Part shown: positions 16,720 to 20,639 of the stretch, one piece after another
How positions within the stretch are numbered: position 1 is the stretch's first letter
How the letters are laid out: each line of letters begins with the position of its first letter
Translations under genes and position numbers: made by a program
From: Zarconia navalis LEGE 11467
GTDB lineage: Bacteria; Cyanobacteriota; Cyanobacteriia; Cyanobacteriales; Geitlerinemataceae
Direction of reading: 5' to 3'
DNA length: 32,558 nt
Assembly (NCBI RefSeq): GCF_015207075.1
Contig: NZ_JADEXN010000003.1
Coordinates: forward strand, 1-32,558
Notes under the pieces: generated by a model
What the model saw: only the letters and a program-made list of their open reading frames with translations
Told to the model about the DNA's origin: nothing
Database searches by the model: none

Positions 16720-17583
16720 ATGTCGATCGAAAATCAGTCGCATGTTGGGGCAAGTTACGCCATCGATTCCGATCGAGAATGGTGGGTACAGCAATGGCTG
16801 GCACTTCTCGATAAATATCGCTTTAAAAAGCGCTTAGAACGGGGTCGAAATTATGCCCGACAGGGAAATGTCCTCAGCATTAATTTTGAAGGGGATAAAA
16901 TTGCCTCTCGCGTTCAAGGCAGCGAACCAGACCCCTATCAGCAATCTCTGTGGTTGGATACCTTCACCGATGAAGATTGGGATTGTATCGTGCAAACGAT
17001 GTCGGAACAGGCAATTTTCTCGGCAAAGTTAATGGCTGGGGAAATGCCCCAAAATATTGAAGATGTGTTTGCAGCAAATGGACTGAGACTCTTTCCATTT
17101 CAGCTCTCAGAAATTCGGTCTCGTTGTAGCTGTCCCGATAAAGCCAATCCCTGCAAACATATCATTGCCGTCTACAATTTGCTCGGCGATCGCTTTGCTG
17201 ACGATCCCTTTGTTTTATTTCAACTGCGCGGACGCAGCCAAGAAAAAATTATTGCCGCCTTGCGACAGATTCGTGGAGAAGAGGCAAAAGATATCGGTGC
17301 GGAGGAGTTAGTATCTGATGCCAATATCGAACCATCGATCGAACTCGAAAATTTTTGGGACTACGATCGCCAACTCGAATCATCTTTAGTCGTCATCGCA
17401 CCGCCTCCGGATAGTAATACGATTTTGGATGTTTTGGGAACTGCGGCTCTGGCAAAACAGGCGAAAATCAGTGGGAGATCGTCAGTTTCGATTGCGGATG
17501 CCGTGAAAAACGATCTCGATCGCATTTATCAAACGGTGAGCCAAGGGGCAATGAAAAGGGCAATGGAAATCGATACAGTTTAA
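16720..17583 (+). CDS. SWIM zinc-finger protein
   Basis: This 287-residue protein has a SWIM zinc-binding motif C-x-C-x6-C-x-H (C136, C138, C145, H147 in CSCPDKANPCKHIIAVY). The region before it (FKKRLERGRNYARQGNVLSINFEGDKIASRVQGSEPDPY) is typical of SWIM proteins encoded beside SNF2-family helicases. No helicase gene is adjacent here. SWIM domains bind DNA or protein, and the partner is unknown. A good AGGAGG ribosome site lies 11 bases before the ATG at 16720. The C-terminal half is helical and less conserved-looking. Confidence 0.88.
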   Translation: MSIENQSHVGASYAIDSDREWWVQQWLALLDKYRFKKRLERGRNYARQGNVLSINFEGDKIASRVQGSEPDPYQQSLWLDTFTDEDWDCIVQTMSEQAIFSAKLMAGEMPQNIEDVFAANGLRLFPFQLSEIRSRCSCPDKANPCKHIIAVYNLLGDRFADDPFVLFQLRGRSQEKIIAALRQIRGEEAKDIGAEELVSDANIEPSIELENFWDYDRQLESSLVVIAPPPDSNTILDVLGTAALAKQAKISGRSSVSIADAVKNDLDRIYQTVSQGAMKRAMEIDTV

Positions 17584-17937: not shown

Positions 17938-18117
17938 TTAGCGTCCGCTACCTCGGTAGGGGGCAAGTTCAGACACATTTTGTGCTTCAAAAGTTAAGGT
18001 TTGGTAGATGGAATTGTTAGACTCGATGCTGTTAGAAGCAGCGCTCGCGACTTGGGCGTTTGCAGCTAAACCAGCGAATACAAGGCTAGAGATGGCAAGA
18101 GTTCCATAGATGCGCAT
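17938..18117 (-). CDS. patX: PatX-type secreted precursor ending in RGSGR
   Basis: This is a 59-residue precursor. Residues 1-27 form a signal peptide: MRIYG, a hydrophobic core TLAISSLVFAGLAANA, and an AxA cleavage site at VASA-ASNS. The short mature part ends ELAPYRGSGR followed directly by TAA. The C-terminal pentapeptide RGSGR is identical to the active end of PatS and to the motif of PatX and HetN. These inhibit the master regulator HetR and set heterocyst pattern in Anabaena. PatX-like proteins with a signal peptide also occur in filamentous species without heterocysts. GGAACG about ten bases before the ATG is a weak ribosome site. The gene follows the ATP synthase terminator and faces the SWIM gene. 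hetR is not in the window. Confidence 0.85.
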   Translation of the reverse strand: MRIYGTLAISSLVFAGLAANAQVASAASNSIESNNSIYQTLTFEAQNVSELAPYRGSGR

Positions 18118-18334
18118 AATTAACGTTCCATTTGTGAGCTTCTATTTCTGGTTACGCAGCTATGGCAATACAATCCGGAGCAAAGTTTCTAATCATTTAA
18201 AATTCAGTAATACTACGGAGTATTCTTTAAAGCGATCGACGATAAGTGCTTGAAAATACCGTGAGTTTCTGTAAAGTATTCGATCGCGCTGTACTCACAG
18301 CACTCCGAAACCGAAAATATTGAAGATCGAAATC

Positions 18335-18396: not shown

Positions 18397-18804
18397 TTAA
18401 ACAGTGCCTCCAGCAGCCAGGACGCGAGCGCGAGAGCGTTTGAGATTCCTTTTCGCTTTGAGTTGCTCTTGTTTAGTTCCCGTTTCAGATTTGGTAAATT
18501 GAGATTGAGCTTGTTCGTACTCTTCGCGAGCTGCTTTGAGATCGATATCTTTGCCCGGTTCGGCTCCATTGACCAAAATCGTGACGCGATCTTCTTCCAC
18601 TTCGGCGAAGCCCCCCATCAGCGCAATGGGAACCCATTCTTTATCGGGGCGCACGCGCATCACGCCAATATCGAGAGCCGTTAGCAAGGGAGCGTGACCG
18701 GACAGGATACCCAGTTGTCCGGTCGTACTCGGTAAAATAATTTCTTGAGCGGTGTCATCCCAAACCGTGCGGTCTGGAGCAATGACGCGGATATTTAAGG
18801 TCAT
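18397..18804 (-). CDS. atpC: ATP synthase F1 epsilon subunit
   Basis: This 135-residue epsilon subunit of the F1 rotor couples rotation to the c-ring and damps ATP hydrolysis (named atpE in chloroplast usage). N-terminal beta-sandwich: [20 protein letters not shown], then [26 protein letters not shown] and [22 protein letters not shown]. The C-terminal helix pair rich in Arg, Lys and Glu follows. The ATG at 18804 is the family start; ten upstream in-frame residues are not part of it. It lies 121 bp after the beta gene and is followed by a strong terminator, so the two form the usual cyanobacterial beta-epsilon operon. Confidence 0.96.
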
Positions 18805-18925
18805 AGGTAATTTAGATGTGACGATCGGTAGCAACGAATTGAAGTTCGGTAAAGCTTGCGAATCGAGAGTGATTCGGGGACAAATCCTTCGCGATTCGCA
18901 GTTTATCGAGAGTTATCTTTTTAAC

Positions 18926-20639
<1,714 letters not shown>

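Follow-up and report, generated by a model that had tools for sequence, protein, structure and literature searches.

The stretch of DNA analysed here as a whole, which we refer to as the window, comprises 32,558 nucleotides of the draft genome of Zarconia navalis LEGE 11467. It contains a small gene on the minus strand which we designate patX. Its 59 codons translate as MRIYGTLAISSLVFAGLAANAQVASAASNSIESNNSIYQTLTFEAQNVSELAPYRGSGR*, the last five residues being RGSGR, directly followed by a TAA stop codon. The start of the protein resembles a signal peptide: by eye an n-region (MRIYGT), a hydrophobic core (LAISSLVFAGLAA) and thereafter ANA and ASA sites can be distinguished, and the best mean over 11 residues in a hydropathy analysis of the N-terminus is 2.2, i.e. 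it is hydrophobic and of the Sec type. Cleavage is predicted to occur after ASA, or earlier after ANA. Translation and hydropathy thus bear out the first-pass annotation, which had described a minus-strand gene of this length with a signal peptide, an AxA site and an RGSGR end. Positions of this gene, of its promoter elements and neighbours and of related genes elsewhere are listed in Table 1.

Table 1. Location of patX and neighbouring features in the window, and of related patX genes in other contigs and genomes.
Feature	Location	Strand	Basis or remark
patX (window type, C-terminal form)	17938-18117	-	59 aa precursor with YRGSGR-stop end; NF047413.1 match; family orthologues
Predicted Sec signal peptide, residues about 1-26 (ends VASA)	18040-18117	-	Sequence reading and hydropathy
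RGSGR and stop, predicted HetR-binding pentapeptide with free C-terminus	17938-17955	-	Translation; PatS6-HetR structure in PMC4649674
DIF1 motif TCCGGA (palindromic), 62 nt before ATG	18174-18179	-	Position conserved in relatives
Promoter block GTAACCAGAAATAGAA, conserved, 18 nt downstream of DIF1; putative -10 or start-site region	18140-18155	-	Upstream alignments
SWIM zinc-finger protein gene, adjoining patX	16720-17583	+	Pfam SWIM, 28.5 bits
atpC (ATP synthase epsilon), upstream neighbour of patX	18397-18834	-	Pfam ATP-synt_DE_N
Second PatX, tailed	L003:1483-1734 (own genome, contig C32)		36.6 bits; RGSGR, then 17-residue tail; TCCTGA promoter box
25-codon leaderless patX of G001	L033 about 976-1053 (same as G001 contig C31)	-	Keeps DIF1 and RGSGR-stop
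Tailed PatX with altered motif	L231, L232, L233 (genus g5); L030 (G001)		RGGGR (g5); RGSSGR (G001)
Multi-copy PatX (11, 5-6, 3-4 RGSGR)	L017:1501-2106 (G021); L161, L162, L163; L134, L135, L137, L138, L164		

The linkage of patX with the SWIM protein gene is kept in two relatives (G001 and G003; tblastn and ORFs). The first-pass annotation had also suggested looking for orthologues beside the ATP synthase operon of related genomes; this arrangement is not conserved beyond one relative. Only in the nearest relative (L033) is patX located beside atpD/atpC, and the atp genes are inverted there with respect to patX. Likewise, among 80 atpC loci with flanks of up to 6 kb, many of them shorter, a small gene ending in RGSGR was found near that of the nearest relative only. 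We did not find evidence for a functional tie between atpC and patX, and the ATP synthase was rejected as functional context of patX because a single relative shows the linkage and the atp block is inverted in it. As a side observation, the atpD gene of the window carries an in-frame TAA (19277-19279, minus strand) at a position occupied by a glutamine codon in the relative (TMLQPSVVGEEHY), either a consensus error of the draft genome or a real lesion.

The product of patX matches the NCBIfam equivalog model NF047413.1 (heterocyst_PatX) with 50.1 bits (3.6e-13, cut-off 30), residues 1-59 being aligned to positions 1-66 of the 69 positions of the model. A Pfam search of the product returned no domain match. 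The earlier assignment to the PatX-type proteins is thereby supported. On the basis of this match, the positioned DIF1 box, the conservation within the family and dN/dS values well below 1 in relatives (see below) we conclude that the gene is a genuine PatX. It is an added member of an already known family, reportedly described by Elhai and Khudyakov in 2018 and by Xu in 2025. The exact C-terminal placement of RGSGR had likewise been read as the PatX layout; it does fit PatX, but represents one of two layouts, as many PatX proteins are tailed.

In comparison to PatX of Anabaena/Nostoc PCC 7120 (NF047413) the window gene shares the signal peptide, the HetR-binding pentapeptide, a DIF1 promoter and the presence of HetR in the genome. 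It differs in that RGSGR forms the exact C-terminus without a tail, that no NtcA-type box (GTA-N8-TAC) is found in the 260 nt upstream, and that two PatX copies are present in its own genome, while nifH was not found in this assembly (61% complete). PatS of Anabaena PCC 7120 has 17 aa and no signal peptide, and its maturation is assumed to be cytoplasmic. It also has RGSGR as its last five residues and a DIF1-type promoter; with 59 aa and a signal peptide, however, the window gene is not a very short, leaderless PatS. HetN, a ketoreductase-like (SDR) protein with an internal RGSGR, has the pentapeptide in common with the window protein, in which an SDR domain is absent, as is any Pfam domain.

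For the chance occurrence of an RGSGR end, we calculated 0.88 expected codon strings of the RGSGR type in a stretch as long as the window. Counted over the whole 4.2 Mb assembly, RGSGR is directly followed by a stop codon at two places: in patX and in a frame of 23 codons that lies inside a long ORF read in another frame. Chance therefore provides about one such end per genome, so that the pentapeptide end alone proves nothing, and we rejected it as stand-alone proof. The same rate would favor the view that patX is an open frame next to the ATP synthase genes whose RGSGR end is accidental, as would the count of TCCGGA, which on its own shows no enrichment in the window (7 versus 12.9 expected). 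However, the match to the PatX model, orthologues in every genome of the family, low dN/dS among relatives and a positioned DIF1 promoter all contradict a chance frame. We consider its probability to be practically nil; the conservation data have already refuted it.

The position of the promoter motif was compared between patX genes. TCCGGA is located 61-64 nt before the ATG in 11 of 13 window-type genes, and in the other two CCCGGA replaces it at the same place. When considering 109 PatX frames from 12 families, we found TCC(G/T)GA at 56-67 nt in 76 of them, versus 0.35 expected in shuffled sequences. Most of the frames without this motif have, at that place, a variant differing by one or two bases. 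The downstream block is recognisable in most of the patX genes aligned.

Conservation of the frame and of its RGSGR end in close relatives, as proposed by the first-pass annotation for testing, was found throughout: a window-type orthologue whose RGSGR end is intact occurs in all 13 other genomes of the same GTDB family. In 12 of these the protein has 56-58 residues and ends in RGSGR-stop. The 13th genome, that of the nearest relative (G001), contains a version of only 25 codons whose signal core has been lost in frame. It still begins with MRIY, ends in PHRGSGR, has an intact DIF1 promoter and adjoins the SWIM protein gene, and its layout is similar to that of PatS. Within genus g6 pairwise dN/dS of the window-type patX is about 0.04-0.21, which indicates a protein under purifying selection in this genus.

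The second PatX of the genome adjoins a sugar-kinase-like gene (SBD_N/NBD_C domains), and a pair of window-type and tailed PatX is also present in relatives of the family. Whereas the window type keeps its RGSGR end in every family genome, the tailed type has drifted in four of them, to RGGGR in three genomes of genus g5 and to RGSSGR in G001. Since the serine of PatS6 forms a hydrogen bond with Glu253 of HetR (PMC4649674), RGGGR should bind HetR less well than RGSGR. The tailed type shares a locus with hetR in several other families. All 26 PatX examined from family f33, whose PatX is Nostoc-like and scores highest, have a short tail after RGSGR. Upstream of tailed patX genes (L003, L016, L031, L032) we further noticed a CAGG/CCTG-like inverted repeat around the putative transcription start; its letters vary, yet pairing seems to be kept, and it may be an operator or an RNA hairpin. 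Given a second PatX in the genome, the window copy could also be regarded as a redundant and decaying relic, in line with the shortened gene without signal core in the nearest relative. This is very unlikely, however: loss of the motif affects the tailed copy, the window copy is of full length with intact promoter and RGSGR end, and purifying selection acts on its orthologues.

A genome search for hetR and a comparison of the HetR residues contacting RGSGR had been proposed as checks, and both came out in favor of a PatX. A single hetR gene is present (contig C73, 142.6 bits); its product of 320 aa matches solved HetR structures with 3e-168. Binding of PatS6 has been tied to Arg223, Glu253, Glu254, Asp256, Asp270 and Asp278 of HetR (PMC4649674), and all six residues are identical in the HetR of this genome. 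When searching 293 genomes of the order with the family models, PatX and HetR were found together in 110, HetR only in 54, PatX only in 3 and neither in 126. The group with HetR only reflects at least in part a limit of sensitivity; G017 and G018, for example, have PatX-like genes below the cut-off. One of the three PatX-only genomes contains a hetR cut by a contig end, beside patX. In G002 and G021 (97% and 99% complete) PatX is present and HetR was not found with a full-length query; PatX could have other targets there, or the assemblies could have gaps.

These two nearly complete genomes would be consistent with a secreted PatX signal that acts on a separate target and largely independently of HetR. 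Work on Leptolyngbya BL0902, which is non-heterocystous, points the same way: the effects of patX on transcription looked largely hetR-independent there, the transcriptomes of delta-patX-hetR resembling those of delta-patX and not of delta-hetR in two gene groups (PMC11298460). On the other hand PatX and HetR co-occur tightly in the order, RGSGR is invariant in the window-type copies, the HetR contact residues are all intact and the exceptions may be due to assembly gaps. For the present lineage we therefore regard HetR-independent action as rather improbable.

Taken as a whole, the observations are very probably best explained by a patX gene with its own DIF1 promoter whose product is exported by Sec, trimmed at the N-terminus and inhibits the multicellularity regulator HetR. 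In Nostoc, PatX requires export, and PatP, a peptidase of the periplasm, cleaves it; the hexapeptide PatX6 binds HetR with a Kd of 88 nM and stops its DNA binding (PMC12756182). As far as can be judged from its sequence, the window protein has all the parts that this mechanism calls for. By analogy with the Anabaena/Nostoc work, patX would be transcribed from the DIF1 promoter, and after Sec export and cleavage by a PatP-type peptidase periplasmic trimming would release (X)RGSGR. Trimming at the N-terminus would suffice because RGSGR already ends the protein. The peptide would then pass to neighboring cells of the filament and occupy the cleft of the HetR hood domain, thus taking HetR off the DNA. 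We infer that the organism signals with a PatX peptide.

The lineage is apparently non-heterocystous, and the role of HetR and PatX in cyanobacteria without heterocysts has been called a mystery (PMC11298460), on which the window gene bears. A link of patX to nitrogen fixation is not supported. The gene is kept in relatives with nifH (G003, g6) as well as in relatives in which nifH was not found (G001, G002, genus g5), and as several of the latter are nearly complete, a role in nitrogen fixation is not required. In nitrogen-replete Anabaena, cells lysed and necridia formed when HetR was unrestrained (PMC7761841). The HetR-controlled process that PatX restrains in this lineage may therefore be cell death with breakage of the filament (necridia), a reasonable guess and the likeliest one.

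A further feature was noticed in three other families, in which RGSGR is repeated in 3-11 copies within the PatX precursor: 5-6 copies in f20, which includes Oscillatoria sp. PCC 10802 (G128), 3-4 copies in f32 and 11 copies in G021. In the precursors tested, the first unit gives a PatX score above the cut-off. The 11-copy protein reaches 23.3 bits as whole protein and 34.1 bits in the genome search (cut-off 30). Multi-copy precursors were not mentioned in the open papers that we searched; as the founding paper of 2018 lay outside this search, priority is uncertain.

It is conceivable, albeit tentative, that in non-heterocystous filaments HetR is fed by two PatX precursors, one with a strict RGSGR at the C-terminal end and a tailed one that can drift, the dose being tuned by the number of motif copies. 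In that case the C-terminal type would need N-terminal trimming only, while the tailed type is often found beside hetR elsewhere. Baaleninema simplex PCC 7105, a cultured strain, belongs to the family for which this two-PatX system is added here, and the system would predict the true HetR-inhibiting copy. Yeast alpha factor is a multi-peptide hormone precursor, and amplification of RGSGR within one precursor would, if true, be a bacterial counterpart of such precursors. Multi-copy precursors, of which the cultured Oscillatoria strain has one, would make the peptide dose directly testable.
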